Below, in pieces: positions 9,067 to 62,217 of a DNA stretch of 64,000 bases (positions are counted from its first letter, which is position 1; every line of letters begins with the position of its first letter). The DNA is from Pectobacterium peruviense (GTDB lineage: Bacteria; Pseudomonadota; Gammaproteobacteria; Enterobacterales; Enterobacteriaceae): NCBI RefSeq assembly GCF_002847345.1, contig NZ_LXFV01000007.1, positions 124,001-188,000 on the forward strand, in the 5' to 3' direction. The notes under the pieces were generated by a model, which was not told the origin of the DNA, searched no databases, and saw only the letters and a list, made by a program, of their open reading frames with translations. Made by a program: the position numbers and the translations under genes.

Positions 9067-9194
9067 ATAGAAATACATTTTATATGGCCCGAGATCGGGA
9101 AGATATCGGGTACTTATCTGTTCCACATCAGCCACTGTGCCGCTTCCAGTTGCTGGCAATAATCCTTTAACAAGAGTGATGTTAATTAAAACGC

Positions 9195-10073: not shown

Positions 10074-10080
10074 TTTGGCA

Positions 10081-45625: not shown

Positions 45626-45665
45626 CGGCTTATCCTGATTCAACAAAAAATTATGGCGCTCTCGC

Positions 45666-45691
45666 TGTCACTTTTCCGTGGTTATTGCACA
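45666..45691 (+). promoter_or_regulatory. ECF-regulon motif, copy 1, before the autotransporter
   Basis: TGTCACTTTTC then TTGCACA, with the first C of CAC (45669) 16 bases before the first T of TTGCACA (45685). The same two blocks at the same spacing occur at 53703-53728 (minus), 55629-55657 and 57978-58006. The autotransporter starts 164 bases downstream. Confidence 0.65.
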
Positions 45692-45855
45692 AAGATCAGT
45701 GAAGGAGACTGAGGTTCTTTTCTACCAGAAACCGCCCTTCATGCAAATAAGGTTTATACCCCGAAATAATGCATCGCATTAACGTCAACCTTACTTTCCA
45801 AATCCCTTTTTATTTGGGAGGCGGTTCCATGTTCTAGAAATGCAGGGAAAATAAA

Positions 45856-48816
45856 ATGACAGCAGCAGCGCAGCTATTTTCATTAAAAAAGAATGCGTCG
45901 TTAAAAAGAAAAACATTTCGGCAATCCATCATCGCTGCCAATATCAGTATCGCATTGCTGATGTTGGCAGGTTGTGGCAGTAGCGGAGGAGGCGGCGGTG
46001 AAACCGCCAGCGTCGCGCCAACGTCACCATCCCCAACAACACCGACGACACCTACCACACCCACGACGCCAACCACGCCGGAAACGCCGACAGCCTCCGC
46101 CGTTAAAGTCGGAATTATTGATTCCGGTCTGGAAGCTGGTCGGCCAGAATTTAATTACGGCAACCTGCATTTTTCATCGTTTATTGGAGGCAGCCCGCAA
46201 CTTAACGATGATCAAGGCGTTAACGGGCACGGTACGCTGGTCGCACTGGCGCTGGCTGGTTTGGCGACGGAAAGCTATGCGGGAGGCGTGGCACCAGATA
46301 GCGAACTCTACATCGCACAAGCATCGGCAAACAATCGCTTTAACTATCAAAACACGACGTCCGCCGTGAATTGGCTGCTCAATTCAGGCGTGAAAATTAT
46401 CAATATGTCCTACGCCGCGGATGAGCGACTCACCACCACCGCAGAGCTGAATAATGCCAGTAACAACTTTAGCTATCTCTTAGTCCGTAACGAATTGAAA
46501 AGCATCGTCGATGCCGAAGCACTGAGCATTGTCGCCACGGGGAATAATGCTGGTTCCACCCCCTCGCCTAATACTCAGATCCCACTGATTTTTGGTGATG
46601 CCTCGCTGCAAAAAGGCATTCTCGCCGTTACTGGCTACATCCCTGAATGGGTCGGGCAGGAAGGAACCGAGCGCCCTGCTGAACTTTACCTTTTTGATAA
46701 GTGCGGCAATGTCGCGGCCTACTGCATGAGTGCGCCAGGCTATGTGGATTATCCCGTTGCAGGCAGCAGTTCGTCTGAACGTTCGCACGGCACCTCTTTT
46801 GCCGCACCACGCGTTGCAGGCGGGGCATCCCGAGTACAGGCGGCCTATCCGTGGATGACCGGCTACAACCTGCAACAGACATTACTCACCACCGCGGCCT
46901 ACCACACCGATGGCTATACCCGATACGACGCAGAGAATTCTTACTACGAAATCATCAGGGACAGCGGAGGTAACGTCACAGGAAGTATTTTCCATCCCGC
47001 TTATATCGCGGTAGCCGATACCGCCAACGGACGCCCTTATAACGATACCTTTGGCTGGGGCGATCTGGACGTCGATAAAGCCGTAAAAGGCCCGGCAATG
47101 TTTTATGCCGATAACTTCACCGCTCGTTTAACCGCAGGCGATTACACGTTCGCTAACGATATCAGCGGCGACTACGGCCTGATCGTCAACGGCGCCAGCA
47201 ATGCGGGTGGCACTCTGCATTTGACCGGCACCAACACTTATAAAGGTGATACACAAATCACCGCCAACCGTTTGTACGTTGACGGATCAATTGCGGGTAA
47301 CGCCAGCGTATCCGGCTTCGGCACGCTAGCAGGAAAAGGCCGGATTGGCGGTAATGTGAATAATACGGGTATCGTTGCCACCACAGCAGAAGGCGGACTG
47401 ACCGTCGCAGGTAACTATACTCAGGGCAGCAGCGGCCTGCTGAACGTGACACTGGCAAATCCGTTTACCATAGAGGGAACGGCTACGTTAAATGGTGGAT
47501 TACGCGTTGGCCTGCCCAGCAACACCTACATCGTCCAAACGCAGGAAACGCTGCTGCACAGCAATCAGGGCATCAGCGGCACTTTTAGCACCACCGACCT
47601 CGGGCTATTCCTGACAGGAAACCTGACTTACGGCAGCAACGATGTCACGGGCGCATTCAGCCGCCTCAATACCGTAGACGCGGTCATCAACAGCGGCTTG
47701 CAAAGCGCCGCACAATTGCAGACCGCTGCCAATATCGAATCGGCGCTACAGGTTGCCGACCGCTGGTCAGCCTTATCCTCGACCAGCGAGCAGCAATCCA
47801 GTTTGCTGACGAAAGCCGCCGCATTCCAGCAGTTAGGCAGCGCGAGTGCCGCAGCCATCGCGCTGGATTCACTGTCTGGTCAGGCGCATGCATCCAGCAA
47901 TGCCATTCTGTTTAACAGCCTGGATTACCAGAACCAGTTACTGAATAACCGACTTGATCTGTTAGGGAACGGGAAGAACTACGGGCTATGGATTGAAACC
48001 GGAAAGCTGCGCGGCGATCTGAAACAGTCCGGCTATCTGGGTAGCCATTACGATATCACCCTGACGGCCATCGGTACGGATACCGATTTCAACACCCCAG
48101 GATTACGCGCCGGGATTGCCTATACCAACAGCCAGATCAAAGCAGACTACGACGGTAGCGGCGGCAGTAGTGAGAATGAGCTGCACGGAGTAATGACCTA
48201 CGCGCGCTACAACCTCACGCCGGAATGGTTCGTTCAGGGCAACCTGAGCTATCAGCACGGCCGCGATAAGCTGAAGCGTTCTATCTTGCTGAATAATGTC
48301 GAAGCCGTTTCCAGCAGCACGTCAAGCGATAGCTGGCAGAGCCTGCTCAAAATGGGATACGAATTTGCACTCAACGATATTTTTAGCGTTCAACCTTATG
48401 CAGGACTCAAATACAGCTACCTGTCTACTGGCGGATTTACGGATACCGGCAGCGCATTGGGTCTGACGGGAGAAGGCAACGACTATTCGCGTACCGTGGG
48501 TCTGACAGGGCTTAATCTGCGCGCCCTGCTGCAATGGAATCAGCGATGGTGGAGCAGCGTCGGCGTTAGCGGTGAGTACCAACATGCGTTTACCAACCCA
48601 TCGCTTGATGTCTCCGCCCGCTGGAGCGGACTGGGCCGCGAAGGAGAACGCCTCGATATACCGGGCATTCGACTGGACAAAGACTCGCAGTGGGCAGGCG
48701 TGAGGCTGGACGTGGGTAAAGCAGCGGATGCACGTTTCTTCCTGCGTGCTGACAAACACTTTGCCGATCGCGGTAACGAAGAAGTGTTGCGCGGCGGCGT
48801 CGACGTTTCCTTCTAA
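45856..48816 (+). CDS. subtilisin-like lipoprotein autotransporter
   Basis: 986 residues. A lipobox LAGC with Cys40 ends the signal peptide, then Gly and Thr-Pro repeats form a linker. The S8 peptidase domain has catalytic D89 (GIIDSG), H125 (GHGT) and S314 (GTSFAAP) and an Asn in ATGNNAG. A PATR-type beta-helix segment (TGTNTYKGDT, GNASVSGFGTLAGKG) leads to a C-terminal autotransporter barrel (about 690-986) ending in Phe. This resembles NalP of Neisseria and SphB1 of Bordetella, which cleave other surface proteins. It carries the ECF motif upstream. Confidence 0.88.
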   Translation: MTAAAQLFSLKKNASLKRKTFRQSIIAANISIALLMLAGCGSSGGGGGETASVAPTSPSPTTPTTPTTPTTPTTPETPTASAVKVGIIDSGLEAGRPEFNYGNLHFSSFIGGSPQLNDDQGVNGHGTLVALALAGLATESYAGGVAPDSELYIAQASANNRFNYQNTTSAVNWLLNSGVKIINMSYAADERLTTTAELNNASNNFSYLLVRNELKSIVDAEALSIVATGNNAGSTPSPNTQIPLIFGDASLQKGILAVTGYIPEWVGQEGTERPAELYLFDKCGNVAAYCMSAPGYVDYPVAGSSSSERSHGTSFAAPRVAGGASRVQAAYPWMTGYNLQQTLLTTAAYHTDGYTRYDAENSYYEIIRDSGGNVTGSIFHPAYIAVADTANGRPYNDTFGWGDLDVDKAVKGPAMFYADNFTARLTAGDYTFANDISGDYGLIVNGASNAGGTLHLTGTNTYKGDTQITANRLYVDGSIAGNASVSGFGTLAGKGRIGGNVNNTGIVATTAEGGLTVAGNYTQGSSGLLNVTLANPFTIEGTATLNGGLRVGLPSNTYIVQTQETLLHSNQGISGTFSTTDLGLFLTGNLTYGSNDVTGAFSRLNTVDAVINSGLQSAAQLQTAANIESALQVADRWSALSSTSEQQSSLLTKAAAFQQLGSASAAAIALDSLSGQAHASSNAILFNSLDYQNQLLNNRLDLLGNGKNYGLWIETGKLRGDLKQSGYLGSHYDITLTAIGTDTDFNTPGLRAGIAYTNSQIKADYDGSGGSSENELHGVMTYARYNLTPEWFVQGNLSYQHGRDKLKRSILLNNVEAVSSSTSSDSWQSLLKMGYEFALNDIFSVQPYAGLKYSYLSTGGFTDTGSALGLTGEGNDYSRTVGLTGLNLRALLQWNQRWWSSVGVSGEYQHAFTNPSLDVSARWSGLGREGERLDIPGIRLDKDSQWAGVRLDVGKAADARFFLRADKHFADRGNEEVLRGGVDVSF

Positions 48817-48974
48817 TCATCCATGACGCTGGCGGCATCTCCGTCGGCGTCAATTTGATATCCACGCCGTCACCGAAAAGAACACGTTATATTAGAAAGT
48901 GCAGACTCACTCTTTTTAGGTATCCTTTTTCTACCATATCAGCCACCACAATTCTGAAACAAAGGAAGTAAGAA

Positions 48975-49346
48975 ATGGCACAGGACAGAGATGAAATCTA
49001 TCGACTCGTGGGCGAACTGTTGCGCAGCATCCAAGATGGCGATCCAACTGCTTTAGTAGATTTTGGCGTGAGCCCGGCTATTTACGAAGAGATTCTTGAG
49101 GAATTGGATAGCGTGGGGGAAAACATGGCGGAACTGACGCTTCCGCCTTATAACATAGCTTTTACACCAGATAGAACGGGCAGGATTCCCCTGTGCAGTT
49201 ACGCGATGGACGCCTCCCCTCAGCGCAAGAGAGTGGAATGCCAGCTCTGGTCTAGAGAGAAAAAGACCGAACTGACGTTAATTGCCGACTACCCAGAGAA
49301 ACCGGGGAAAACGTCTCTGCTTTTCCGACTCTTAGAAACGCAATAA
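48975..49346 (+). CDS. conserved protein of unknown function
   Basis: 123 residues, starting MAQDRDEIYRLVGELLRSIQ. I do not recognise the family with confidence. It is soluble, acidic in the N-terminal half (EEILEELDSVGENM), with a basic segment near residue 80 and no signal peptide. AAAGGAAG lies before the ATG. It stands alone between the autotransporter and the convergent ABC transporter, and I see no ECF motif before it. Confidence 0.75.
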   Translation: MAQDRDEIYRLVGELLRSIQDGDPTALVDFGVSPAIYEEILEELDSVGENMAELTLPPYNIAFTPDRTGRIPLCSYAMDASPQRKRVECQLWSREKKTELTLIADYPEKPGKTSLLFRLLETQ

Positions 49347-49373
49347 CTCCGCCCCTGTTTGAGCGGAATTATT
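49342..49373. terminator. hairpin between convergent genes
   Basis: AATAACTCCGC (49342-49352) pairs with GCGGAATTATT (49363-49373) around a CCCTGTTTGA loop. No T-run, so only a candidate terminator for either side. Confidence 0.45.
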
Positions 49374-49395
49374 CCATTGAAGACAGCAGACAGCA

Positions 49396-51198
49396 TCACT
49401 CGCCGCGCCAGGCCAAACCACGTTCACTAAATGCCCTATCCGAATCTGGATGCGGCGGTGCGTCATCGCCCATATGAGTATCCCTCTCATGCCGACGGTC
49501 ACTTTCGGCTAACGGTGTCAGGTGTAAATGATGAGTATGCAAAGCCGCCAGCGATTCCCGATGCGCTACGCTGATAATCGCGCTGTCAGGTAAGGCAGTG
49601 ACCAATGCCTGATACACCAGTTGCTCTGTCTCAGGATCGAGCGCACTGGTCGCTTCATCCAGAAAAACAAAATCTGGCCGATGCAACAATGCACGGGCTA
49701 TCGCCATTCGCTGCTGCTCACCGCCGGATAACCGCTGCTGCCAGCGATCTTCCTCATTCAACTGTGAGGCCATGTTCGGTAATTCGCTGTCGATGAGCGC
49801 CTGTCGGCATTGTTCGTCGGTAAAATCCCGCACATTGCCGGGGTAGCACAACGCCGCTTTCAGCGTTCCCGTCGGGAGGTAGCTTTTCTGCGGTAAAAAC
49901 AGCGTGCGGCAGTGGCGAGGCAGTGCAATCGCCCCGCTACCGTGCTGCCATAGTCCGGCACAGGCGCGCAGCAGCGTGCTTTTACCCACACCGGATGCGC
50001 CGTTAATCATCCAGCGTTCACCGGGCAAGACCTGCCAGTCATCTAACGCGGTCAGCGCACGGCCATCCGGCGTTAACAGCCGCAGATTCTCGCAGGAAAA
50101 CCCAAGGCCATCGTGTTCCGTCACCCGAATAGGTGATGATGTCCGCACGCTTTTGTTCAGCGCTTCTTCCATATCCTGCAAACGCTTCGTCAGCGCCAGC
50201 CAGCGTGTGAAGGACTGATACGCCTGCATAAAATAGCTCAGCGTCGCCCCCAGAGAACCGTAAGCCATCTGAATCCGCGTTAAATCGCCAAAGGTGAGCT
50301 CGCCACGTAACAGCTGTGGCAGCGCCAATAGCGTCGGCAACGGTGAAAGAAAATGGCTAAACAGGCTCTGACCAAACGACACCTTAAAACCACGCAGCAG
50401 CACAGACAGCGCATTGTCACGCACGCGAGCGAACCGCTGAGCCAGCCGCTCGCCTTCCCGCGCCCCTCCCTGATAGAAGGCAATCTGTTCCGCGTTTTCA
50501 CGTAACTGAACGCCCAGAAAACGGAAGTCACCTTCCGCATTCTGTTGGTTCATATTCAGCTTTATCAACGCCTTACCCAGCCAGTGTGACAGCGCAACCT
50601 GAAGGATATATTCGATATAGAGGGCGTAAACCATATAACCGGATATCGCCCAGTCGCTGCCCATAAACGAGAAACGCAGTACCCCAGAAACCGACCATAG
50701 CAGCGCCGTGTACGTGACGGTGCTGATGACGACCGAGATAAGGCCGAGAAAAAAATTCAGCGAGGCCGACACCAGTTCGTTAACGTCATCGGCGATACGC
50801 TGATCGATATTCGACAGCGCACCGTCTCTCTCTATTTCGTAATAAGCCGATGTCCCCGTCCAACGCCGGATATAGTGGAGCGTCATCCAGGTACGCCAGC
50901 GCAACGCCAGATAGCCTTGACTGAGTACGTTTATCCATCTCAGCATCATCGCGCTCAAACCGAGGATGAAGCTGAAGATAAACAGCGGCTTTATTTGCTC
51001 CCAATCCAGCCCAATCAACGCATCGGTGAATTTCCCCGAGACTCGGTTCGCCTCCACGCTGATGTAGGCCGTACCCAGATTGATGCTAATAATCACCGCC
51101 AGAATAAACAGCGCCAGATACTTCTCTGGCGTCTGCCAATAGGGCATCAGAATCTGGCCGATGCCCGGTTTTGTCGTACTCGTCTCGCTTGCGTTCAT
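49396..51198 (-). CDS. ABC transporter, SbmA/BacA/YddA-like permease fused to ATPase
   Basis: 600 residues. The N-terminal part has about six membrane helices of the ABC_membrane_2 family (TLHYIRRWTGTSAYYEIE, NIDQRIADDVNEL); the C-terminal ATPase has Walker A GASGVGKST, signature LSGGEQQR and Walker B FVFLDEATSAL. Relatives include E. coli YddA and Rv1819c of Mycobacterium, an importer of peptides and cobalamin with an exporter fold; SbmA/BacA import peptides but lack the ATPase. It lies 74 bases after the receptor gene on the same strand, so it may carry the receptor ligand across the inner membrane. A C-terminal tail rich in His, Asp and Arg is unusual. Confidence 0.87.
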   Translation of the reverse strand: MNASETSTTKPGIGQILMPYWQTPEKYLALFILAVIISINLGTAYISVEANRVSGKFTDALIGLDWEQIKPLFIFSFILGLSAMMLRWINVLSQGYLALRWRTWMTLHYIRRWTGTSAYYEIERDGALSNIDQRIADDVNELVSASLNFFLGLISVVISTVTYTALLWSVSGVLRFSFMGSDWAISGYMVYALYIEYILQVALSHWLGKALIKLNMNQQNAEGDFRFLGVQLRENAEQIAFYQGGAREGERLAQRFARVRDNALSVLLRGFKVSFGQSLFSHFLSPLPTLLALPQLLRGELTFGDLTRIQMAYGSLGATLSYFMQAYQSFTRWLALTKRLQDMEEALNKSVRTSSPIRVTEHDGLGFSCENLRLLTPDGRALTALDDWQVLPGERWMINGASGVGKSTLLRACAGLWQHGSGAIALPRHCRTLFLPQKSYLPTGTLKAALCYPGNVRDFTDEQCRQALIDSELPNMASQLNEEDRWQQRLSGGEQQRMAIARALLHRPDFVFLDEATSALDPETEQLVYQALVTALPDSAIISVAHRESLAALHTHHLHLTPLAESDRRHERDTHMGDDAPPHPDSDRAFSERGLAWRGE

Positions 51199-51272
51199 GC
51201 GCCGTTTCTACCTGCTGATTCGTGTGAATGACCGTTCTCGTTATTTGTCTAACAGATTGGCCGAACGGATTA

Positions 51273-53648
51273 TCAGAACGAATACGTCCCAGTGAGACGC
51301 CACGTCCGCCCTTCCTTCACTCCGATATACAGCGGCGTCGTGCTGGTGTAGTAGATATCGCGATCGAAGACGTTATTGACGCCCAGCGTCAGCGACCAGT
51401 CAGGCTGGCGGTAAAACACCGATGCATCGGTTGATGCCGAGCTGCCGATAGTGAAGACGTTATTGGTCGGGCCGTTCTGCGTTTTCGATGAACCGCTGAT
51501 ACCGACTGATGCACCGGCACCCTGATAGCGTCCAGACTGCACTTCATAAGACGTCCACACGTTTCCAGAGTGGCGCGGCGTAATCGTGCTACGAACGGTG
51601 GTAGGATCCTTATTATCCGAGTAGGTATAGCTGGCCGTGACATCCCATCCCGGCAACAAAGAACCATTCAAATCCACGTCAAAGCCTTCGCTCTTTCTCC
51701 CCGTGGTCGCAATCGGGAAACCGTTTCTATCCGTTACCGCCAGGTTTTTTTGCTCAATGCTGAATACGGCTGTCGTCAGCGTGAGGTTGTCATCAAGCAG
51801 GTTAAACTTCAGCCCAGCTTCTTTAGACTGCCCCGTCGTTGGCGGGAGCTGGACACCAGAGCGTGAAACCTGCGCGCTGCCGCTAAAGCTATTCAGCAAG
51901 TTGGCGTAAATCGTAACGTCCGGTGTGATATCGAAGCTAATGCCGTAATTGGGGATCCACTTGGTCGCGGTATACGTAGATGCTCGCGTTCCCACCAAAT
52001 AGCTGTTGTTCCATGTCGAGCGCTTCACCGCCAGTTGGAAATGCAGGCGGTCAAAGACATCGATCTGATCCTGGAACAAGAAACCACTTTGAATCAGCTT
52101 GGACGTGTACGTCCGGCTATTCGGTTCACCGATGCTGGGGAACACCAGCGAGTCTGGGTTATACACGTTCCCATTGGTCATCAGGATAAAGCTGCCGTCA
52201 TAGCTGGCGTAGCGTTCATGCTTATAGTCATGACCGACCAACAAGGTCTGAGTGACGGGCCCGGTTTCGATTTTCCCGCGAATATCATTTTGCTGGCTCC
52301 ACGTCTGATTAGTGGATTTATAGGCCAGCGGGTGGCTGATTTTGTTGCCATTGGCGGCGATATCCAGCGTTTCGTTCATCTTCATCTGCGAAGCTGTGCT
52401 CTGGAAACCCGCTTTACTATTAAATGTCCAATCGTCGACGAGCTTTTGCTCCAATTCATAATAGGCATTCGTCGTTTTCATCTTGTTATGATCGTCTTTA
52501 TCCCCCAGACGATATTCCGGCAGCTTCTGTATTCTTCCGTTAGCGTAAATCGTCCCGGCAGGTCCCGATTTACGTGCCTGATTGACTTCCGCACCAACGG
52601 TGATCCGCGTATTGTCGTTTTTCCAGGTCAGCGCTGGGGCTAAATAATCACCGTGGTTACCGTTGTAATCAGGAAAGGAGTGCTGAGATTTCATGGTTGA
52701 GGCATTCAAACGGTAGCTGAACGCTTTATCGTCCGTGATCGCGCCGCCCAGATCGATAGCCGTTTTAAATTCACCGTAGCGCGCCGCCTCGACTTTGAGG
52801 ACATGCAACGGTTCGGTTACCGGTTTTTTACGCACAACGTTAATGGTTCCCGCGGCGGAGCTGCTCCCCGCGAGCACCGATTGTGGCCCTTTCAGCACTT
52901 CGACACGTTCGACCCCCTCAATCGCCGTGCCCTGACCAATACCGGCATTGCTGGAGCCCGACAGGCCATCCGTCGCACCGGACGTTACGGCATAGCCGCG
53001 CATCCAATACGTAGGCGCACCACGGTTTGATTGAATGGTGACCACGCTGCCCGAGTTTTTTAACGCCTCTTCCAGCGATGTGGCCTGGCGGGCAGTAATC
53101 AGCTTATTACTGATTACCTGAACCGACTGTGCCGTTTGCTGCAACGACGTGCTGGTGCGTAATGCCGAAGAGGAGGTGCCGGGGTTCAATACGGTTTCAT
53201 CTTCACTGCCTGCGCTGACGGTAATCGCTGGTAGCGTTTTATCACTCGCCTGCGCCACTTCTGCATCATTAGCGCGGGAAGAAACAATGGTCAGCGTGCC
53301 ATTACCCGTCGTCGTCAATAATAACGGCGTACCTTGCAGCAAGCGTAAAATAGCCTGACGCGTTGAATAATTGCCATTCAGCGCGGCACTCTGATAATTC
53401 GCCACCAGCGCAGGATTAAAAGAGAGCGTCTGTTTGCTTTGATTGGCGATTGCCAATAGCCCTTTTTGCAGGTCGCCAGCAGGAATAGAAAATGCCACAG
53501 TGTCATTTTCACCCGCCGCATAGACGGTCATAGGAACGGTCGTCGCCCCCACGAATAACGCAGAATTAATCGCCAACATATTAGTGAAGAATAAGCGTTT
53601 CTTAAAACCCAACCCCAGAGCGGGAGAGGCAGTATTACGTTTTTTCAT
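51273..53648 (-). CDS. TonB-dependent receptor with N-terminal signalling domain
   Basis: 791 residues. After a long signal peptide (cleavage near residue 44, TVYA) comes a secretin/TonB N-terminal (STN) domain (about 50-120), found only in receptors that signal to FecR-type anti-sigma factors. A TonB box-like LPAITVSAG, a plug with VERVEVLKGPQSVLAGSSSAAGTINVVRK, and a 22-strand barrel ending in Phe follow. It looks like a siderophore-type receptor, but the ligand cannot be read from sequence. An ECF motif lies 55 bases before the start. Confidence 0.92.
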   Translation of the reverse strand: MKKRNTASPALGLGFKKRLFFTNMLAINSALFVGATTVPMTVYAAGENDTVAFSIPAGDLQKGLLAIANQSKQTLSFNPALVANYQSAALNGNYSTRQAILRLLQGTPLLLTTTGNGTLTIVSSRANDAEVAQASDKTLPAITVSAGSEDETVLNPGTSSSALRTSTSLQQTAQSVQVISNKLITARQATSLEEALKNSGSVVTIQSNRGAPTYWMRGYAVTSGATDGLSGSSNAGIGQGTAIEGVERVEVLKGPQSVLAGSSSAAGTINVVRKKPVTEPLHVLKVEAARYGEFKTAIDLGGAITDDKAFSYRLNASTMKSQHSFPDYNGNHGDYLAPALTWKNDNTRITVGAEVNQARKSGPAGTIYANGRIQKLPEYRLGDKDDHNKMKTTNAYYELEQKLVDDWTFNSKAGFQSTASQMKMNETLDIAANGNKISHPLAYKSTNQTWSQQNDIRGKIETGPVTQTLLVGHDYKHERYASYDGSFILMTNGNVYNPDSLVFPSIGEPNSRTYTSKLIQSGFLFQDQIDVFDRLHFQLAVKRSTWNNSYLVGTRASTYTATKWIPNYGISFDITPDVTIYANLLNSFSGSAQVSRSGVQLPPTTGQSKEAGLKFNLLDDNLTLTTAVFSIEQKNLAVTDRNGFPIATTGRKSEGFDVDLNGSLLPGWDVTASYTYSDNKDPTTVRSTITPRHSGNVWTSYEVQSGRYQGAGASVGISGSSKTQNGPTNNVFTIGSSASTDASVFYRQPDWSLTLGVNNVFDRDIYYTSTTPLYIGVKEGRTWRLTGTYSF

Positions 53649-53702
53649 TTTTCCCTCGTCAATTGCTTCAAAAAATCAGTTTTTATTGGTCTTCGTATGA
53701 TT

Positions 53703-53728
53703 TGTGCAATGACGATGAAAAAGTGACA
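53703..53728 (-). promoter_or_regulatory. ECF-regulon motif, copy 2, before the TonB-dependent receptor
   Basis: On the minus strand TGTCACTTTTTC, then ATTGCACA; CAC to TTGCACA is again 16 bases. The copy is almost the same as the one at 45666 (TGTCACTTTT and ATTGCACAAA shared). The receptor starts at 53648. Confidence 0.65.
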
Positions 53729-53729
53729 G

Positions 53730-53749
53730 CGGGAAAGTCATTTTTCCCG
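53730..53749. repeat. inverted repeat upstream of the receptor promoter motif
   Basis: CGGGAAA and TTTCCCG flank GTCATT. It lies directly upstream of copy 2 of the ECF motif and may be an operator or part of the promoter's upstream region. The remainder of 53750-54062 shows no gene and no convincing Fur box. Confidence 0.4.
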
Positions 53750-54062
53750 TAATTATTTTTTCTCGGTAGAAAACAGATTGATTTGGAAAAACCTTTTCTC
53801 TGTATTTTTAAATATAAAAAATGAATCACTCTACTCTTATGAATCGTATTTTTTATCTCCCGCTAAGAAACATCCAGAAATAGCAATTTACCCATTCCAG
53901 TCAGTAACAGAACATTTCTAACTAACGATAGAAAAAAAACGTGGTTTGACTCCTGCAAATTTTGACTTAAAAACAGCACAGGACGCATCGTTCCTTTTGT
54001 TCTGCGGCCCTGGGGTATCCCGGTTCAAGCATTGTTGTGATTTACGCGATTTAAGGATGCCC

Positions 54063-54584
54063 ATGTACACAGAGGCTGTTAAAAAACCCGACTTACTGTC
54101 ACTGATATTTCGCAGCGATTATCGCTGGCTAACGGAAAGATTACGCCGCCGTATTGCCTACGGCTGTGAAGCGGAAGATGTCGCCTCAGAGGCATTTTTA
54201 CGTTTAGCCTCGCTACCAAATCTTGCCAACGTACAGGAACCGCGCGCGATGCTAACCACACTCGCCAAACGCGTACTGTATGAAAACTGGCGTCGCCGCG
54301 ATCTGGAAAAAGCCTATCTCACCGCGCTGGCGAGTAAACCTGAATTTCACCATCCGTCGCCGGAAGAGCAACAGCTGTTGATGGAGGCGCTGCTCACTAT
54401 CGATCAAGCGCTGGATGGGCTATCCACCAAAGCACGGCAGGCATTTCTGTTCAGCCAGCTTGATGGCATGACCTATGCCGACATTGCCGTACAGCTCGAT
54501 GTCTCCGCCAGTATGGTGAGAAAATATATCGCCAAAGCGCTGACCAACTGCTATCTGGCCACGCAGGACAGCAGTGACTTATAG
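54063..54584 (+). CDS. FecI-type ECF sigma factor
   Basis: 173 residues. Region 2 (FRSDYRWLTERLRRRIAYGCEAEDVASEAFLRL) and region 4 (DGMTYADIAVQLDVSASMVRKYIAKAL) are typical of iron-starvation-type ECF sigma factors. AAGGA lies five bases before the ATG at 54063; a second ATG at 54057 overlaps that site. Directly followed by the FecR-type gene. It is the likely reader of the four shared motifs, though no copy precedes its own gene. Confidence 0.9.
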   Translation: MYTEAVKKPDLLSLIFRSDYRWLTERLRRRIAYGCEAEDVASEAFLRLASLPNLANVQEPRAMLTTLAKRVLYENWRRRDLEKAYLTALASKPEFHHPSPEEQQLLMEALLTIDQALDGLSTKARQAFLFSQLDGMTYADIAVQLDVSASMVRKYIAKALTNCYLATQDSSDL

Positions 54585-54593
54585 GTGAACCGC

Positions 54594-55568
54594 ATGGCAA
54601 GACGACACATGGATGACCCGATTGCCGAACAGGCGATTGAATGGATGGTGCTGCTGCGTTCCGGCGAAGCAACACAGACCGATTACGATGAATACCGCCG
54701 CTGGCGATACGAAAACCCTCTGCATGAGCGCGCCTGCCAACGCATCGAGCAAACGCTGGGGAAATTTCAGCCTCTTCTCGCCGCACTGCCTCACGAACCG
54801 ATTCGTCAGGCGTTATTAGCACCCTCAGGTCGGCGCAAAGTCCTGCAATATGGACTGGGCATGGTGGCTGTCGCCTCGCTAAGCAGTCTGCTACTTAACC
54901 AGCATTACCCCCTGTCACCGCTTCTGTCCGATGTGAAGACTGCCACGGCACAGCGCCAGCAGGTTCCACTCAGCGATGGCAGCACGCTCATGTTGAACGC
55001 GCGTACCGCCGTCGATATCAACGTTGAACCAGAAAATACCCTTCGTCAGGTCGGCATTCTCAACGGTGGTATCTTCGCGAAGATTAAGTCGGATGCACAG
55101 CGCCCTTTTATTATTGATACCCACATGGGCAATATCGTCGCACTTCAGGCCAATGTGAACGTGCGTTATGAAAGCGGCGGCATCCACGTCGGCGTGCTGG
55201 ATAACATCGCCAAGGTGACTAACCATGCAGGGCAAAGCCTGCGCCTTCACGCGGGTCAGGGCGTCTGGTTCGATCGCTCAACGCTCTATCAGGTTGCCGT
55301 CACGCCGGAGGCAGAAAGCGCCTGGATGCAGGGTCGTCTGGAAGTCCGCGATCGCTCGCTGGCGTCGGTCATCAGCGAGCTGCGTGATTACACTCCCGGC
55401 ATTATCCGGTTAGATCCCGCTATCGCCGATCTGCGCGTCAGCGGCAATTTCCCGCTAGATAACCTGAACTACACGCTGGATTCTCTGGCGCAAACCATGC
55501 CCATCGCGATTGTGCATACCACCGATTACTGGATACATATCCGCGCCGCCGACGCCAGACGCGTATAA
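54594..55568 (+). CDS. FecR-type transmembrane sigma regulator
   Basis: 324 residues: cytoplasmic N-terminal domain (ERACQRIEQTLGKFQ), one membrane helix (about residues 85-105), FecR domain (VPLSDGSTLMLNARTAVDI) and a C-terminal STN-like region that would contact the receptor signalling domain. The ATG at 54594 has AGGTGA six bases upstream; a GTG at 54585 abuts the sigma stop. It should pass the ligand signal from the receptor to the ECF sigma factor. Confidence 0.9.
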   Translation: MARRHMDDPIAEQAIEWMVLLRSGEATQTDYDEYRRWRYENPLHERACQRIEQTLGKFQPLLAALPHEPIRQALLAPSGRRKVLQYGLGMVAVASLSSLLLNQHYPLSPLLSDVKTATAQRQQVPLSDGSTLMLNARTAVDINVEPENTLRQVGILNGGIFAKIKSDAQRPFIIDTHMGNIVALQANVNVRYESGGIHVGVLDNIAKVTNHAGQSLRLHAGQGVWFDRSTLYQVAVTPEAESAWMQGRLEVRDRSLASVISELRDYTPGIIRLDPAIADLRVSGNFPLDNLNYTLDSLAQTMPIAIVHTTDYWIHIRAADARRV

Positions 55569-55628
55569 GCGATGGCTCGCAAAGGTGGTAGTCAGGGATG
55601 GCAAGCCGCAAAAAATTTCACGCACGTG

Positions 55629-55657
55629 GTGACACTTTTCCTGCCTCGTTGCACATC
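55629..55657 (+). promoter_or_regulatory. ECF-regulon motif, copy 3, before tonB
   Basis: GTGACACTTTTC, seven bases, GTTGCACATC; CAC to TTGCACA is 16 bases. It is preceded by an A/T-rich tract (CAAAAAATTTC) that also precedes copy 4. The tonB GTG is 82 bases downstream. Confidence 0.7.
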
Positions 55658-55738
55658 GTTAATAGAGGTCATCACAATCCCGATGTTCAGGGCGGCATAA
55701 AGCGCTCAACACCGTAAGCAAGAGCAGCAGAGGAAAAC

Positions 55739-56620
55739 GTGCAACAGGCATCCGTGCAACACCTTTCATTAAACGCGCGCGTTGATGCGGCACCCGCCGC
55801 ACGGCGTGACGTCGCACCCGCACAGCCGTCGCGCAGCATGACGGTGGCAGCGCCCGCCCGGGGAGAAATGGGGAAGATTGCGCTCAGCTTTCTGACGGTT
55901 GCGCTGATCCATGCAGGTGTCGCCGCCTTACTCATCACGCGAACCACCGAATACACACCGATCAACCTGCTCAATCCAGCAGCCAGTATCAGCATTCAGG
56001 CCACGATGGTTGACGCACCGGAACCTGAACCGATTCCTGAACCGTCGCCGGAGCCACCCGTGCTGACATCAGAACAGGGTGAACGTGAAATTGCGCCCGT
56101 TCCTGAAAAGCCAGTCGTTGAGGAACAGCAAACGCCACCGCCTCCGGTCAAAAAAGAGGTTCACCAGCCGCCGGTTAAGCCAGTGGTAAAACCGCAGCCC
56201 GTCCGCCAAAAAACCACCGCCGAGCGTCAGCCTGCGGCGCGTCCGGCGCCGGAGCCGTCTCCCGCCGCACCGGAAGCGACGCCAGGCCCGCTGACGACAG
56301 CCAGCAAAGGCAATCTGATGCAGAACAGCCCGGGGGCGCAGCCTAAACAGGTCGCATCCGTTGGCTGTGTCGTCCCGCAACCTGACTACCCTCGCCGCGC
56401 CAAGCGTCTCCAGCAGGAAGGCAATGTGCTGGTTCGTCTGGTAATTAGCCCAGAGGGACGACTGATTCGACACGACATTGCTCGCAGTAGCGGCTATGAC
56501 GCCCTCGATCAGGCCGCGATTGAAGCCGTGGCGCAGGCACGCTGTACGCCTTACCGCGAAAATGGACAGGCCATTACCGTCATGACGATTCAGCCCGTTA
56601 ATTTCCGGCTGACTCACTAA
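55739..56620 (+). CDS. TonB-like energy transducer
   Basis: 293 residues from a GTG with GAGG five bases upstream. A cytoplasmic N-terminal extension of about 45 residues precedes the membrane helix (IALSFLTVALIHAGVAALLI with the conserved His of TonB). A Pro/Glu/Lys-rich spacer follows (about 93-185), then a C-terminal TonB domain (QPDYPRRAKRLQQEGNVLVRL). It is a dedicated second TonB beside the housekeeping one presumably elsewhere, and shares an operon with exbB and exbD. Confidence 0.9.
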   Translation: MQQASVQHLSLNARVDAAPAARRDVAPAQPSRSMTVAAPARGEMGKIALSFLTVALIHAGVAALLITRTTEYTPINLLNPAASISIQATMVDAPEPEPIPEPSPEPPVLTSEQGEREIAPVPEKPVVEEQQTPPPPVKKEVHQPPVKPVVKPQPVRQKTTAERQPAARPAPEPSPAAPEATPGPLTTASKGNLMQNSPGAQPKQVASVGCVVPQPDYPRRAKRLQQEGNVLVRLVISPEGRLIRHDIARSSGYDALDQAAIEAVAQARCTPYRENGQAITVMTIQPVNFRLTH

Positions 56621-56698
56621 GAAAGCACCTGCGTTGAAATAGCGCATCCGCCGTTTCGCAAACACGCCCGAATCAGGTTATTGCATAAGAGGTCATAT

Positions 56699-57439
56699 AT
56701 GAACACGTTAGATATCCACCATTTCTGGCAGCAGGGCGACGTGGTCACCCACTCGGTAGCCATCATTCTGCTCATCATGTCGCTGCTGTCATGGACGGTC
56801 ATGCTGCTCAAAGCACGACAGCTGTTCGCCTTGAACAAGAGCGTGCAATACAGTCGGAATACCTTTTGGCAGGCAACCAGCCTGCAAGAGAGCGTCGAGA
56901 AATTCGGTAAGCAGCGTTTTAACCCGTTCCGCGATCTGGTGATCGAAGGACATGCGCTGCTGAAACACCCACACAAATTCTCTTCCACGTTGGGCGGACA
57001 CGTCGATCTCAGCGACTGGCTGGTGCGCGGCCTGAGCAACACGCTGGACACCAACTCAGGCAAACTGCAATCCGGCCTCGGCACGCTGGCATCTATCGGC
57101 AGTACCGCGCCGTTTATCGGCTTGCTGGGCACCGTGTGGGGCATTTTTCACGCGCTACAAACCATCAGTACCATCGGCCAGCCCGATCTGGCTCAGGTTG
57201 CTGGCCCTGTCGGCGAAGCCTTGATCATGACGGCGTTTGGCCTGTTCGTGGCGATTCCCGCTGTACTGGGATTCAACGCGATCAACCGCCGCAATCGCAT
57301 CGTTCTGCATGCCATGAATCGCTTTGCGCACGATCTGCACGCTTACCTGCTGACTGGCGCACGCGTGGATACCAGTATTACCGACCTTAATAGTGCGGCG
57401 CGGTATGAGCCGACTCACCCCGTTGAGCGCTCCGCCTGA
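56699..57439 (+). CDS. exbB: ExbB-like proton channel protein
   Basis: 246 residues of the MotA/TolQ/ExbB family with three membrane helices; LGTLASIGSTAPFIGLLGTVWGI and ALIMTAFGLFVAIPAV are the channel helices. The ATG at 56699 has AAGAGG upstream; an earlier in-frame TTG is not supported. Confidence 0.92.
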   Translation: MNTLDIHHFWQQGDVVTHSVAIILLIMSLLSWTVMLLKARQLFALNKSVQYSRNTFWQATSLQESVEKFGKQRFNPFRDLVIEGHALLKHPHKFSSTLGGHVDLSDWLVRGLSNTLDTNSGKLQSGLGTLASIGSTAPFIGLLGTVWGIFHALQTISTIGQPDLAQVAGPVGEALIMTAFGLFVAIPAVLGFNAINRRNRIVLHAMNRFAHDLHAYLLTGARVDTSITDLNSAARYEPTHPVERSA

Positions 57440-57453
57440 AGAGGAACATAGCC

Positions 57454-57876
57454 ATGAGTATGTCATCCCCGTTTGAAAGTCAGGAAGACGCCCTGCTTAA
57501 CGACATCAACATGACGCCGTTTATTGATGTCATGCTGGTGCTGCTGATCGTGTTCATGATCACCCTGCCGGTCATTAATCATGCCGTCAAAGTGGAACTA
57601 CCGCGCGCCAGCGTCGAAAAAATCAAGAAAGATCCACAAGCTGTGGATATCGCGATTACCGCAACCGGACAAATGAACTGGAATAAAGAAGCGGTCGATG
57701 ATGCCCAACTGATCGCCAAACTCGATGCGGCCTCAGCCGAAGGCACTCACCCGAATATACGGCTGTTTGCCGATCAGGCCGTCGAATATGGTCGGGTAGC
57801 GTATGTCATGACGAATGCCCAGCAGCGTGGCCTGAGCAAAATCGATTTCGTCCTGCAACCCGCCAAAGCCCCCTGA
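57454..57876 (+). CDS. exbD: ExbD-like proton channel protein
   Basis: 140 residues with one membrane helix and the proton-carrying Asp25 in TPFIDVMLVLLIVFM; the periplasmic domain ends with KIDFVLQP. With ExbB and TonB it powers the receptor. Confidence 0.92.
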   Translation: MSMSSPFESQEDALLNDINMTPFIDVMLVLLIVFMITLPVINHAVKVELPRASVEKIKKDPQAVDIAITATGQMNWNKEAVDDAQLIAKLDAASAEGTHPNIRLFADQAVEYGRVAYVMTNAQQRGLSKIDFVLQPAKAP

Positions 57877-57886
57877 CTTCCTCTTT

Positions 57887-57922
57887 CGCTCTGGTGCTGA
57901 CAGCCTCGCCAGCATCAGAGCG
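57887..57922 (+). terminator. hairpin after exbD
   Basis: CGCTCTGGTGCTG (57887-57899) pairs with CAGCATCAGAGCG (57910-57922), 13 pairs with one G-T. No T-run; it may end or stabilise the tonB-exbBD transcript before the next ECF motif. Confidence 0.45.
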
Positions 57923-57977
57923 CATCATCTTCTCCATCATCCGAATGCCTCAGCGTAAAAAAAAGTTTCGGCCTGCG

Positions 57978-58006
57978 GTGACGCTTTTCTTTCTTCGTTG
58001 CACATC
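57978..58006 (+). promoter_or_regulatory. ECF-regulon motif, copy 4, before the tldE-like gene
   Basis: GTGACGCTTTTC, seven bases, GTTGCACATC; CGC to TTGCACA is 16 bases. 23 of 29 bases or so agree with copy 3, including the upstream A-tract. The tldE-like ATG lies 36 bases downstream. Confidence 0.7.
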
Positions 58007-58041: not shown

Positions 58042-59406
58042 ATGTCTTCTCTTGATGAATCCCCCGTTCTTGCTACGCCGCAGACCGACACGCTTCAGTC
58101 GCTGGCCGGAGACGTGCTGAACTTCGCGGCCGCAAAAGGCGCGAGTCAGGCGGTCGTCAGCGTCTCGCAGGGAAACCGCCGCACCATCCGCGTCAGGAAC
58201 GGCGATATTGATACGCTGACGCAAAACCAAAGCCGCTTCCTGTCCGTTACGGTCTACTTCGGCCAGCGCGCAGGTACCGTTTCTTCGACCTTGTTTAGCA
58301 AGGAAGCGTTGCAGGATGCCGTGGACGCCGCCAGCACGCTGGCAAAATATGCCGATGAGGATCCGTGTAGCGGCCTGCCGGAAGCGCAGCATTTTGCCCG
58401 TGATATTTACGATCTTTCGCTGCACAACGCCTATACGCTGACAGTTGAGCAAGCACTGTCGCTGGCACTGCGTGCCGAGCAGGTCGCCAATACCACGCAT
58501 GAGCATGGCTACAGCGAGAGCACGGAAATCACCTCGCAGCAGGGAGACTTTATTCTGGCGAACTCTGCCGGTTTTTCGGCAGGTTACCCAACATCGTTAC
58601 ACACCCTATGGAGCCATGCGATTGCGCGTAATGATACACAACGCCAGCAGGGTTTCTGGCACACCACCGGCAGAGCGCCGTCTCTGCTGGCCTCGCCAGA
58701 GACTATCGGACATACCGCCGCGCAACGTGCGGTGGCACAGCTAGGTGCACGAAAACTCTCAACCCGCCGCTGTCCAGTGCTGTTTGACGCCCCTGTGGCG
58801 CACAGCCTGATTCATCATCTGGTCGGTGCGCTGAGCGGCGCGGCGCTTTATCGATCCACGTCATTTCTGGGTCAGTGCCTCGGTGAGGCCATCACTGCAC
58901 CGCACCTGAGCCTGTATGAAAATCCGTTTATTCCTGGGGCACTGGCTAGCGCCTGCTTTGATGCCGAAGGCGTCGCCGCGACTCCGCGGCATGTCATCCA
59001 CGATGGCATTGCACAAGGCTATTTTCTCTCAAGCTACAGCGCTCGACGCTTGGGGCTCACGACGACCGGACACGCAGGTGGAGCCTATAACCTGAGTGTC
59101 AGCAGCAGCCAAAGTCGCGCTGGCGATGACTTGCCAGCGCTGTTGCGCCAGATGCACACAGGACTGCTGGTCACCACGCTGCTAGGACACGGACTGAACC
59201 CAATGACGGGCGACTATTCGCAGGGTGTGGCGGGCTTTTGGGTCGAAAACGGCGAAATTCAGTATCCGGTCGAAGAGATCACCATTGCAGGCAACCTGAA
59301 AACGCTGCTCCTGCACTGTGTCGCGCTCGGGGCGGACATCCACACGCAGGGCAATCTCTCCTGCGGTTCCCTATTGATTGAAGAGATGCAGATCGCCGGG
59401 CAGTAA
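58042..59406 (+). CDS. TldE/PmbA-like protein (paralogue)
   Basis: 454 residues, near the E. coli TldE length. The C-terminal half follows TldE closely (HLVGALSGAALYR, SYSARRLGLTTTGHAGG, GAAGFWVENGEIQYPV-type segment VAGFWVENGEIQYPVEEI, AGNLK). TldE is the non-catalytic partner of TldD; together they cleave unfolded peptides and trim microcin B17 and CcdA in E. coli. The N-terminal half is more divergent. Since it sits in a TonB operon rather than in the usual place, it is probably a second copy dedicated to this system. Confidence 0.88.
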   Translation: MSSLDESPVLATPQTDTLQSLAGDVLNFAAAKGASQAVVSVSQGNRRTIRVRNGDIDTLTQNQSRFLSVTVYFGQRAGTVSSTLFSKEALQDAVDAASTLAKYADEDPCSGLPEAQHFARDIYDLSLHNAYTLTVEQALSLALRAEQVANTTHEHGYSESTEITSQQGDFILANSAGFSAGYPTSLHTLWSHAIARNDTQRQQGFWHTTGRAPSLLASPETIGHTAAQRAVAQLGARKLSTRRCPVLFDAPVAHSLIHHLVGALSGAALYRSTSFLGQCLGEAITAPHLSLYENPFIPGALASACFDAEGVAATPRHVIHDGIAQGYFLSSYSARRLGLTTTGHAGGAYNLSVSSSQSRAGDDLPALLRQMHTGLLVTTLLGHGLNPMTGDYSQGVAGFWVENGEIQYPVEEITIAGNLKTLLLHCVALGADIHTQGNLSCGSLLIEEMQIAGQ

Positions 59407-59440
59407 TCCCACATCGCGTCACAGAAACAGGATCACCATC

Positions 59441-60886
59441 ATGGCAATACACGCTTCCAGAGCGCCAGTCTCACCTGCGCTGTCGGCATTTTCGCTGGAA
59501 ACGACGGAGATAACGCACGCACTGAACCACATCATGCAGCGTCAGGTGGACTATGCCGATCTCTATTTTCAGCGCCGCCAGCAGGAAGGCTGGCAGTTAG
59601 AAAACGGCATCGTGCGCCCAACAGGATTTAGTCGCGATCAGGGCGTTGGCGTCCGCGCCGTCAGCGGCGAGAAAACGGCGTTCTCCTACACGAATGACCT
59701 CCGTCCGCAGGCGATTCTGCAAGCGGCCAATACCGTAAGAGAAATCAGCCGTCAGGGACAGAACGCCACGGTGGCATTACCCGCATCGCTGCCGCACGGC
59801 ACAACCGCACTCTATCCGTCAGACAATCCCTTACTGGCCGTAACCGAGGAACATAAACGTCAGCTTCTGCTCTCGATCGACAGACAGGCGCGCGCCCGCG
59901 ATCCCCGCGTGACGCAGGTAACGGCCTACCTGAATGCTTCACACGAAACCATTCTGATCGCCCGACATGACGGTCGGCTCGCCACCGATGTTCGCCCGCT
60001 GGTGAATCTGGTCATCAATGTCGTCGTCGAACAGCAGGGTCGCAGGGAGAATGGTTCCAGCGGTGGCGGGCGACGCCTCGACTACCGATTCTTTGCTGAC
60101 GAGACGGTCAGCCAGTGGGTTAATCAGGCTGTCGATCAAGCGCTGAATAATCTGGATGCCAGTCCGGTGCCAGCAGGCACTTACAGCGTAATCCTCGGTG
60201 CAGGTTCGCCCGGCATTTTGCTGCATGAAGCTATCGGGCACGGGTTGGAAGGCGATTTTAATCGCAAAGGCAGTTCCGCATTTTCCAGTCTGTTAGGAGA
60301 ACGCGTCGCCGCGCCGGGCATTACCGTCGTGGATGACGGCACGCTCGCCAACCGGCGGGGTTCGCTGCATGTGGACGATGAAGGCACGCCGTCGCAGTGC
60401 ACGACATTAATCGAGGACGGCATCCTGCGCGGGTATTTACAGGACAGCCTCAACGCCAGACTGATGAATACCGCCCTGACGGGCAATGCACGTCGGGCTT
60501 CCTACTCCGCGCTGCCGCTGCCGCGCATGACCAACACCTACATGCTGGCAGGACAATATCCCGCCGAAGAAGTGATCGCGTCGGTCAAAAATGGCCTCTA
60601 CGCCGTCGGCTTCGGCGGCGGGCAGGTTGATATCAGCAGCGGGAAATACGTTTTTTCCACCACCGAAGCCTACCTGATTGAAAATGGACGCGTCACTCGC
60701 CCGGTTAAAGGTGCCACGCTGATTGGTCACGGACCAGAAGCACTGCTGCACGTCGCGATGGTGGGCAACAATCTGGCGTTGGATGACGGCAATATCGCCT
60801 GTACCAAGGAAGGCCAATCCTTGCCCGTCAGCGTCGGCCAGCCAACGCTTCGTATCGACAACATGACCGTAGGCGGCTCGCAGTAA
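59441..60886 (+). CDS. TldD-like metalloprotease (paralogue)
   Basis: 481 residues from MAIHASRAPV, equal to E. coli TldD. The catalytic HExxxH is H262-E263-A-I-G-H267, at the E. coli numbers. GSGGGRRLDYRFF, GTLANRRGSLHVDDEG and the C-terminal GHGPEALLHVAMVGNNLALDDG are family segments. It should form a heterodimer with the upstream TldE-like protein and cleave peptides in the cytoplasm. The 34-base gap indicates one operon. Confidence 0.9.
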   Translation: MAIHASRAPVSPALSAFSLETTEITHALNHIMQRQVDYADLYFQRRQQEGWQLENGIVRPTGFSRDQGVGVRAVSGEKTAFSYTNDLRPQAILQAANTVREISRQGQNATVALPASLPHGTTALYPSDNPLLAVTEEHKRQLLLSIDRQARARDPRVTQVTAYLNASHETILIARHDGRLATDVRPLVNLVINVVVEQQGRRENGSSGGGRRLDYRFFADETVSQWVNQAVDQALNNLDASPVPAGTYSVILGAGSPGILLHEAIGHGLEGDFNRKGSSAFSSLLGERVAAPGITVVDDGTLANRRGSLHVDDEGTPSQCTTLIEDGILRGYLQDSLNARLMNTALTGNARRASYSALPLPRMTNTYMLAGQYPAEEVIASVKNGLYAVGFGGGQVDISSGKYVFSTTEAYLIENGRVTRPVKGATLIGHGPEALLHVAMVGNNLALDDGNIACTKEGQSLPVSVGQPTLRIDNMTVGGSQ

Positions 60887-60951: not shown

Positions 60952-62217
60952 ATGTCAGACGCCATTATCACTGCCAACGATACCTCGCTGGATGCGTTGC
61001 TCACGACTAGCGACAAACCCATTCTGCTCGACCTGTGGGCACCCTGGTGCCAGCCGTGTAAAACGCTGGCTCCTCTGCTGAACACGATTGCCGATAACAC
61101 GCCAGACAACCTGACCGTCGCCAAGCTGGATGTGGAGCAATATCCGGCATTCATGCAGCGTTTTGGCGTGCGTGGTATTCCTACGCTGCTGCTGTTTAAA
61201 AATGGGCAAGAGATTTCACGGCAGATCGGCGTGAAAACGCTGGCACAGCTACGCGGCTGGCTGGAATCGCACGAGATTGCGATACAGAACACCGCACAGC
61301 CGCTGGCAGACACTCGCGTTACGTGGAGCACGTTCTATGGTGATGCTTCACTGCACACTTTCCTCCACCAGCGGCTACGTCAACATGCGGCGGACGGTAA
61401 TATCGAACACGCATTTTCCCCCTACTGGCAGGACAACAAAGGCTCAGTCTCTGCTGCACTGGCGCACAGTGCAGATATTCGCATCTTTGAACGCATCACC
61501 GGATTACCGGCCGCACTCGGGCTGCTGCTGGAAAAACTGCCGAGCACCACACCAGAACAGGTTGATGCCCTCTTTGCGGCTCTCGCTCCGGGAAAAACGG
61601 TAGATGGCGTGGCGCTGCAATGGCTGCACCACTGGTTAAGTCACGAAGGAAATCCGTGGTCTGACTGGCTGGTAGATGAAACCGTAGACGGCTTGCGCCA
61701 GCAGTGGATTCAGGCAATTTCACGGCTGTTAGCGGGCGAAGCCGTGGCAGAAAGCGAATGGACGGCACTGCATCAGCAGGCAATAAGCTGGGAAGAAAAA
61801 GCGGCTACCGAACTGGGCCTGGAAAAGAATATTGCAACAATACTCGCCAGCCTATCGCCGCCGCCTGCCGCGTCCGACGCTGATAGCTGGCGCAGCATCA
61901 GCACCACTCTTGGCTTCGCGCTGGCGCAGATCCTGCAAATTAAAGACGGATGGAGCAGAGAAGAACGCGCAACGCCAGATAAGCGCTTCCGCTGGTTTCA
62001 GGCACAGGAAGACGCCACGCCGAGCAAAAAACTAACGGATGAGCAAATTACCGCGCTACGTGAACAGTGGCTTCAGGAGAACTCGGATTTTTCCGCGAAA
62101 GAGGACGCATTTTATCAGCGCTACCCACAGCTGTCAGAAGCGCAGAAAATCCCCTTGCAGGAAACGCTGTGGGAATTGCTTCGTCGTGCACCCACCTTCA
62201 AATCACAGCTGGACTGA
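60952..62217 (+). CDS. thioredoxin domain fused to a long uncharacterised region
   Basis: 421 residues. The N-terminal 110 residues are a thioredoxin with active site WCQPC (C33, C36), the cis-Pro loop GIPTLLLF and good helices. The remaining 300 residues are mostly helical and match no family I recognise; segments such as SPYWQDNKGSVSAALAHSA and the Trp-rich LHHWLSHEGNPWSDWL are distinctive. No signal peptide, so it is cytoplasmic. It follows the TldD-like gene by 65 bases and may reduce disulfides in the imported ligand or act as a holdase like CnoX. Confidence 0.82.
   Translation: MSDAIITANDTSLDALLTTSDKPILLDLWAPWCQPCKTLAPLLNTIADNTPDNLTVAKLDVEQYPAFMQRFGVRGIPTLLLFKNGQEISRQIGVKTLAQLRGWLESHEIAIQNTAQPLADTRVTWSTFYGDASLHTFLHQRLRQHAADGNIEHAFSPYWQDNKGSVSAALAHSADIRIFERITGLPAALGLLLEKLPSTTPEQVDALFAALAPGKTVDGVALQWLHHWLSHEGNPWSDWLVDETVDGLRQQWIQAISRLLAGEAVAESEWTALHQQAISWEEKAATELGLEKNIATILASLSPPPAASDADSWRSISTTLGFALAQILQIKDGWSREERATPDKRFRWFQAQEDATPSKKLTDEQITALREQWLQENSDFSAKEDAFYQRYPQLSEAQKIPLQETLWELLRRAPTFKSQLD

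Follow-up and report, generated by a model that had tools for sequence, protein, structure and literature searches.

We show that a 64-kb window of Pectobacterium peruviense DNA carries four perfect copies of one bipartite motif, placed before an autotransporter gene, the gene of a TonB-dependent receptor, tonB and a tldE-like gene. By window we mean the whole stretch analysed, positions 124,001 to 188,000 of contig NZ_LXFV01000007.1 (G000:C7:124001-188000 in our genome scan). Very probably each copy is a promoter, and together they define one small regulon transcribed by RNA polymerase with the FecI-type extracytoplasmic function (ECF) sigma factor encoded at 54063. An earlier reading of these letters alone, here called the sequence-only reading, had claimed such a regulon, and the claim is supported by the specificity of the motif, its conservation and its co-occurrence with the sigma factor. 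In its short form, CRCTTTT-N9-TTGCACA, the motif is matched perfectly four times in the 64 kb (45669+, 53725-, 55633+ and 57982+), always with 16 bases from the first C to the first T. The extended 28-bp form, GSTGWCRCWTTT-N6-TNR-TTGCACA, was derived afterwards from the sites, with positions conserved in relatives added. The copies and their predicted roles are as follows.

45664..45691, + strand: motif copy 1, predicted promoter of the autotransporter gene; 0 mismatches to the 28-bp motif, A-tract upstream
53703..53730, - strand: motif copy 2, predicted promoter of the receptor and ABC transporter genes; 0 mismatches
55628..55655, + strand: motif copy 3, predicted promoter of tonB-exbB-exbD; 0 mismatches
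57977..58004, + strand: motif copy 4, predicted promoter of the tldE-tldD-thioredoxin genes; 0 mismatches

The positions, strands and 16-base register given in the sequence-only reading were all recovered, with 0 mismatches in each copy. Two of its details needed correction: the blocks CRCTTTT and TTGCACA stand nine bases apart and not seven, and the A-tract that it had assigned to copies 3 and 4 is found upstream of all four. The distance from the end of the motif to the start codon is 164 bases for the autotransporter gene, 54 for the receptor gene, 83 for tonB and 37 for tldE. No further match to the short pattern with up to two mismatches occurs in the window, and none of this quality precedes the sigma gene, as had also been claimed. 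Shuffled windows scanned at the same tolerance contain 1.44 matches on average and reach four in 3 of 100 shuffles, so that the weight rests on all four copies being perfect. A scan of the whole genome (59 contigs, 4,784,226 bases, 4.78 Mb), proposed at the outset as a check, bore out the specificity of the motif: the window's four copies are the only perfect matches to the short pattern, and the eight further matches with one mismatch represent background, the reversed control giving six with zero or one mismatch. The 28-bp motif has four perfect matches genome-wide, all in the cluster, and one more with three mismatches, of which the reversed control has two; at up to two mismatches it reveals no extra regulon member in this genome. 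Since the extended pattern was fitted to the sites, this genome-wide gap is descriptive and carries no formal P value.

The motif also occurs together with the sigma factor. Among 392 genomes of the family, eight have an orthologous sigma (70-100% identity), and all eight contain at least one exact motif match; five of these genomes had already supplied loci and a sixth is that of the window, which leaves G151 and G087 as the only ones not yet seen when the pattern was set. The exact motif is present in 1 of the 384 family genomes that have no orthologous sigma (G163), as a single match (L045) with no cassette genes in the 12 kb around it. A different FecI-type sigma of the same cell is extremely improbable as the reader. 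The genome does encode three further FecI-type sigma factors, but no copy with up to three mismatches lies near these paralogues, and the exact motif is absent from all 48 genomes in which FecI-type sigmas are represented by paralogues alone (E up to 1e-30). In 249 Pseudomonas genomes, where at most 14 sigma candidates were scored per genome and counts of sigma-bearing genomes are lower bounds, at least 12 contain a match to the sigma (E up to 1e-50), and at least five have the sigma beside a TonB-ABC-TldDE cassette. Four of these five carry two exact motif copies, and the fifth (G577) carries a one-base variant, TGTCACTTTT-N9-TCGCACA, before both units. Seven Pseudomonas genomes with a 50-55% identical sigma and no cassette have no motif. 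Among the 244 genomes that remain besides the five, three share one identical match, and one of the three, G408 (3 kb examined), shows no cassette gene.

Conservation beside orthologues, likewise proposed as a check, was confirmed in two cassette orders. We profiled 30 loci with a relative of the sigma (L013-L042). Fourteen of these (L013-L026, from Pectobacterium, Acerihabitans, Rahnella, Biostraticola, Pantoea, Brenneria and Pseudomonas) have the motif next to the cassette, and none is found at up to two mismatches in the other 16 (L027-L042). The motif precedes both the receptor gene and tonB in Pectobacterium, Acerihabitans, Biostraticola, Pantoea, Brenneria and four Pseudomonas species; in Rahnella it precedes tonB, and the contig ends ahead of the receptor. 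At least four cassette layouts occur in Enterobacterales and Pseudomonas. The tldED genes lie within the receptor operon in Acerihabitans, Biostraticola, Pantoea and Brenneria, within the tonB operon in Pseudomonas L023-L026, and behind their own motif copy in Pectobacterium, and in two diverged Pseudomonas loci (L079 of G425 and L080 of G487) an ABC-thioredoxin-TldED block has its own motif copy and the sigma gene sits inside the tonB operon. Through these rearrangements, motif copies follow transcription units: a copy with at most one mismatch is found at the receptor unit in 19 of 19 orthologous loci, the tonB unit has one in 20 of 20 (two mismatches in L026, at most one in the rest), a separate tldE has one in all six Pectobacterium loci with tldED after exbD (one mismatch in L013), and a separate ABC gene in both loci that have it. 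Moreover, the 20.5-kb locus L014, which has no tldED, also has no tldE motif copy. Since the loci include near relatives, these counts are not independent.

In the complete sequence of the genomes to which 12 of the loci belong, every exact match to TGNCRCWTTT-N9-TTGCACA lies, judged by coordinates, at the cassette or before the autotransporter gene, with one exception in Brenneria; the exceptional copy is beside an esterase gene, at the place where Pectobacterium has the autotransporter, and no autotransporter is found in the 13 kb around it. The autotransporter is the least conserved target: it is present in five Pectobacterium loci and in none of the other loci compared (no genome-wide search was made), and its motif has decayed to two mismatches in L017. 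In G087, a perfect, unlinked motif (L044, 7276-7301, + strand) stands about 118 bases before a macA-macB-type operon (genes 7419-10525), about 4.1 Mb along the contig from the sigma locus of that genome; this operon is likely an extra regulon member, which would place export beside import. The diverged Pseudomonas loci L079 (1941-14241) and L080 (1187-13484) have the sigma gene in the tonB operon behind a motif copy, an arrangement that suggests positive autoregulation there. In both, tblastn (E up to 1e-8) gave no match to fecR, and both contain an extra relative of the C-terminal part of the thioredoxin gene, which in L079 has no Pfam match. Locus L081 (1067-6312) has two tandem relatives of the ABC transporter, and its thioredoxin gene is matched over the thioredoxin-domain part only.

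Across 50 unique, partly related sites, conservation extends to positions that played no part in finding them, namely an A-tract 12-20 bases upstream and T-C-R before TTGCACA; TTGCACA is followed by W-A and then by purines 7-11 bases downstream. Conservation and fixed position alone would also fit the operator of a DNA-binding activator or repressor, with the true promoters elsewhere. We consider this very improbable, given that the motif is asymmetric, is directed toward the gene at every cassette unit and keeps a strict register, that the A-tract stands where an UP element belongs and the putative start region is purine-rich, and that the scanned cassette proteins include no recognisable classical regulator. 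Evidence against an operator also comes from a neighbouring FecI clade (L082-L089). There, the pattern TATAAA-N13-YTGCWCA, read off the sequences after fecR, has 12 matches in seven of the eight loci, L089 ending just after fecR. It has 0 matches at spacers of 12 or 14 and 0 in 406 kb of motif-bearing loci, and the window motif has 0 in the loci of this clade. Second copies in L083, L084, L087 and L088, 6-7 kb away, were not used to derive the pattern. In both clades the -35-like block starts 19 bases before the -10-like block. That the clades agree in the -10-like block and the register but differ in the -35-like block speaks for promoters of a sigma factor and not for operators of a regulator.

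TTGCAC resembles TTGACA, and it could in principle be the -35 box of ordinary sigma-70 promoters, a reading that we find hardly credible. Although 11 of 41 sites have four of six -10 matches at spacers of 16-18, the mean -10 match over the 41 sites is 2.71 of 6, against 2.46 (standard deviation 0.37, maximum 3.56) at shifted positions; no clear -10 stands at the right spacing, and the upstream block and the sigma co-occurrence would be left unexplained. We rejected sigma-70 as the reader of TTGCAC.

Twelve positions separate 17 motif-bearing sigmas from 25 others, among them M151 (17/17 versus 4/25) and R153 (17/17 versus 1/25), both taken to be within the recognition helix of region 4.2. In the sigma tree, L034 and L035 form the group nearest to the motif-bearing sigmas (84/79), and the TATAAA clade falls in the next group out. 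The Paraburkholderia locus L034 (11573-11614) has a related cassette with TGGAAATC at the -35-like place and TTGCACA before the receptor gene. TGGAAATC resembles GGAAAT, the -35 of fecA, and it is possible that the L034 promoter links fecA-type and window-type promoters.

Several points weigh against reading the four copies as promoters of this sigma factor. Close relatives contribute many of the 50 sites, the extended pattern was fitted to known copies and met only two new genomes (those named above) among the eight with an orthologous sigma, and the TATAAA pattern was taken from its own loci. In the best tree a single branch sets the motif-bearing sigmas apart, but its support is weak (61/28; 62% of bootstrap trees), and the positions that separate them from the others extend beyond region 4.2. 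Orphan motif copies exist in L043 (6646, - strand, 0 mismatches) and L051 (16701, - strand, one mismatch), where they lie beside an esterase gene with no autotransporter or recognised cassette gene found downstream; in L043, no open reading frame of at least 100 aa separates the orphan motif from the next gene. Additionally, the strict -10-like word TYGCWCA occurs after fecR in only 7 of 24 other FecI loci, where shuffles average 2.24 and reach 7 at most; in one of the seven (L084) it lies far from the fecR end. With seven loci not clearly above shuffles, a -10-like block common to all FecI sigmas is unsupported, and we claim a shared block for the TATAAA clade alone.

The genes of the putative regulon, with those of the sigma factor and its regulator, are the following.

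45856..48816, + strand: subtilase autotransporter (PF00082, PF03797), predicted regulon member in Pectobacterium
49396..51198, - strand: ABC transporter, SbmA/BacA-like membrane part fused to an ATPase (PF06472, PF05992, PF00005)
51273..53648, - strand: TonB-dependent receptor with N-terminal STN signalling domain (PF00593, PF07715, PF07660)
54063..54584, + strand: FecI-type ECF sigma factor (Sigma70 regions 2 and 4; NF008889, 332.6 bits versus cutoff 181)
54585..55568, + strand: FecR-type anti-sigma/sigma regulator (DUF4880 and FecR domains)
55739..56620, + strand: TonB (PF03544)
56681..57439, + strand: ExbB (PF01618)
57454..57876, + strand: ExbD (PF02472)
58042..59406, + strand: TldE/PmbA-like peptidase subunit (three PmbA_TldD domains; PRK11040, 394.6 bits, below the cutoff of 438)
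59378..60886, + strand: TldD-like peptidase subunit (PRK10735, 598.4 bits versus cutoff 513)
60952..62217, + strand: thioredoxin with a long C-terminal extension (PF00085 at residues 6-105 of 421)

The sigma factor, whose gene is adjoined by that of its FecR partner, is 99% identical to the Pectobacterium versatile sigma and scores 172.2 bits against the FecI model NF041727, below the cutoff of 260. The receptor falls in the TonB-siderophore receptor subfamily (TIGR01783, 269 bits, cutoff 223.5), and its nearest solved chains are CntO/FoxA, FpvA and FhuA. Its STN domain scores 33.9 bits against a cutoff of 28.4; in the receptors of L018, L023, L079, L080 and L081 this domain scores below the cutoff, at 17.3-23.2 bits. 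The best solved relative of the ABC transporter is 6tqe, the mycobacterial multi-solute importer Rv1819c. The thioredoxin gene, with an extension of about 300 residues, travels with the cassette in Enterobacterales and Pseudomonas loci. No M16 protease was found among the window cassette proteins scanned, TldD and TldE being present instead. A small protein encoded at 48975-49346 of the window has no NCBIfam or Pfam match; it is conserved among Pectobacterium loci close to the cassette, though its position varies (L014 15438, L016 18922).

We propose that these parts would work together as follows. The receptor would bind its substrate outside the cell and, through its STN domain, signal via FecR to release or activate the sigma factor. 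At the promoters, the -35-like block GSTGWCRCWTTT would be read by region 4.2 of the sigma and the -10-like block TNRTTGCACA by region 2; the A-tract, at about -55 to -45, would serve as an UP element, and the predicted transcription start lies about 7-11 bases beyond TTGCACA. The active sigma would then turn on the receptor and ABC transporter, TonB-ExbBD, and TldED with thioredoxin, and in Pectobacterium also the subtilase autotransporter. Neither the sigma gene nor fecR has a motif copy of its own in the window.

Genes of iron-starvation sigmas are typically, though not always, controlled by Fur; no sign of this was seen for the sigma gene of the window. In a crude scan with a 19-bp consensus, no Fur-like site of at least 14/19 occurs in the 64 kb; before the sigma gene the best score is 11/19 within 250 nt and 12 within 450 nt. 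Three paralogous fecI genes of the same genome have Fur-like sites of 15, 15 and 14 of 19 just upstream, and elsewhere L031 and L033 reach 16 and L038 reaches 15. Within 250 bases, the 12 motif-clade sigma genes scanned score 10-13, as do eight TATAAA-clade genes; other loci also have no strong site (L027 and L028, 13; L041, 12; L034, 11). In 17 orthologous loci, seven have one 14/19 site, six of these inside exbD or receptor genes and one (L046) beyond the cassette. A Zur-like scan, run without a control, gave a best score of 14/23 and nothing convincing. Control by iron and Fur was set aside on the negative consensus scan in the window and at 12 of 12 motif-clade sigma genes (best 13/19), and we regard Fur independence as a lead with an internal positive control, not as proof.

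What the cassette imports can be read in two ways. A siderophore-type receptor, TonB-ExbBD, an SbmA/BacA-like transporter, thioredoxin and TldDE suggest, with moderate confidence, peptide capture, import and digestion; TldD and TldE are best known from peptide maturation and breakdown. The sequence-only reading had noted neither this peptide-type cassette nor the missing Fur box. It is possible, if doubtful in our judgement, that this is an ordinary iron-siderophore uptake regulon with TldDE and thioredoxin as bystanders. The subfamily and nearest solved relatives of the receptor favour siderophores, and the Fur scan is a consensus scan only, in which shuffles of the AT-rich region upstream of the sigma gene reach 14/19 in 11 of 200 trials. 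Against this, Fur-like sites of at least 14/19 are absent from the window yet stand just upstream of the three other FecI genes, and two different gene orders of the cassette both include TldD, TldE and thioredoxin. This alternative concerns the substrate and not the promoter, and a peptidic metallophore would fit both the receptor type and the inner part of the cassette. The second TATAAA copy of L083 (copies at 9779 and 16832), the one place opened of the four with second copies, precedes a gene for a family-5 solute-binding protein; such proteins often serve peptides. Tentatively, and with a confidence just short of calling it probable, we propose that a branch of FecI-type cell-surface signalling left iron control: a Fur-free system would sense an external peptide and switch on a line of capture, import, reduction and digestion, and its promoters may have evolved in a modular way, the -10-like block staying and the -35-like block changing with region 4.2.

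Our findings provide a delimited regulon with four predicted promoters in one genome and a matched sigma clade, which can be used to learn how FecI-type sigmas choose promoters, and two neighbouring sigma clades that have one promoter block in common and differ in the other. They also point to a dedicated, possibly iron-independent uptake pathway in which TldD/TldE would act on the imported substrate. A literature search covering open-licence papers returned no title describing the motif or the cassette.

Compared with known systems, the regulon is of the FecI type, has a -35-like block of its own, and appears to be free of Fur control and linked to a cassette for peptide processing. Like FecI-FecR-FecA of E. 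coli, it combines an ECF sigma, a FecR with DUF4880 and a receptor with an STN domain; it differs in having four separate target units and GWCACT as the -35-like block instead of the GGAAAT of fecA. In PMC9249621, fecIR is described as not autoregulated, which parallels the sigma gene here without its own target motif, and Fur binds at fecA and fecI, whereas the window system has no recognisable Fur box. The neighbouring Pseudomonas FecI clade (L082-L088) is alike in its -10-like block, its register and the lack of a Fur-like site above 13/19, and differs in its TATAAA -35-like block and another receptor. SbmA/BacA-type importers and Rv1819c are related through the membrane domain, which matches SbmA_BacA, and through 6tqe as the best solved relative; the window cassette adds a dedicated outer-membrane receptor and sigma control. 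Finally, the Fus system of Pectobacterium and YddA-YddB-PqqL of E. coli, described in PMC5095587 and PMC3855560, likewise combine a TonB-dependent receptor with a fused ABC transporter. These systems have a periplasmic M16 protease, whereas the window cassette has TldD/TldE and thioredoxin instead, together with its own TonB-ExbBD, FecI/FecR and a siderophore-type receptor.

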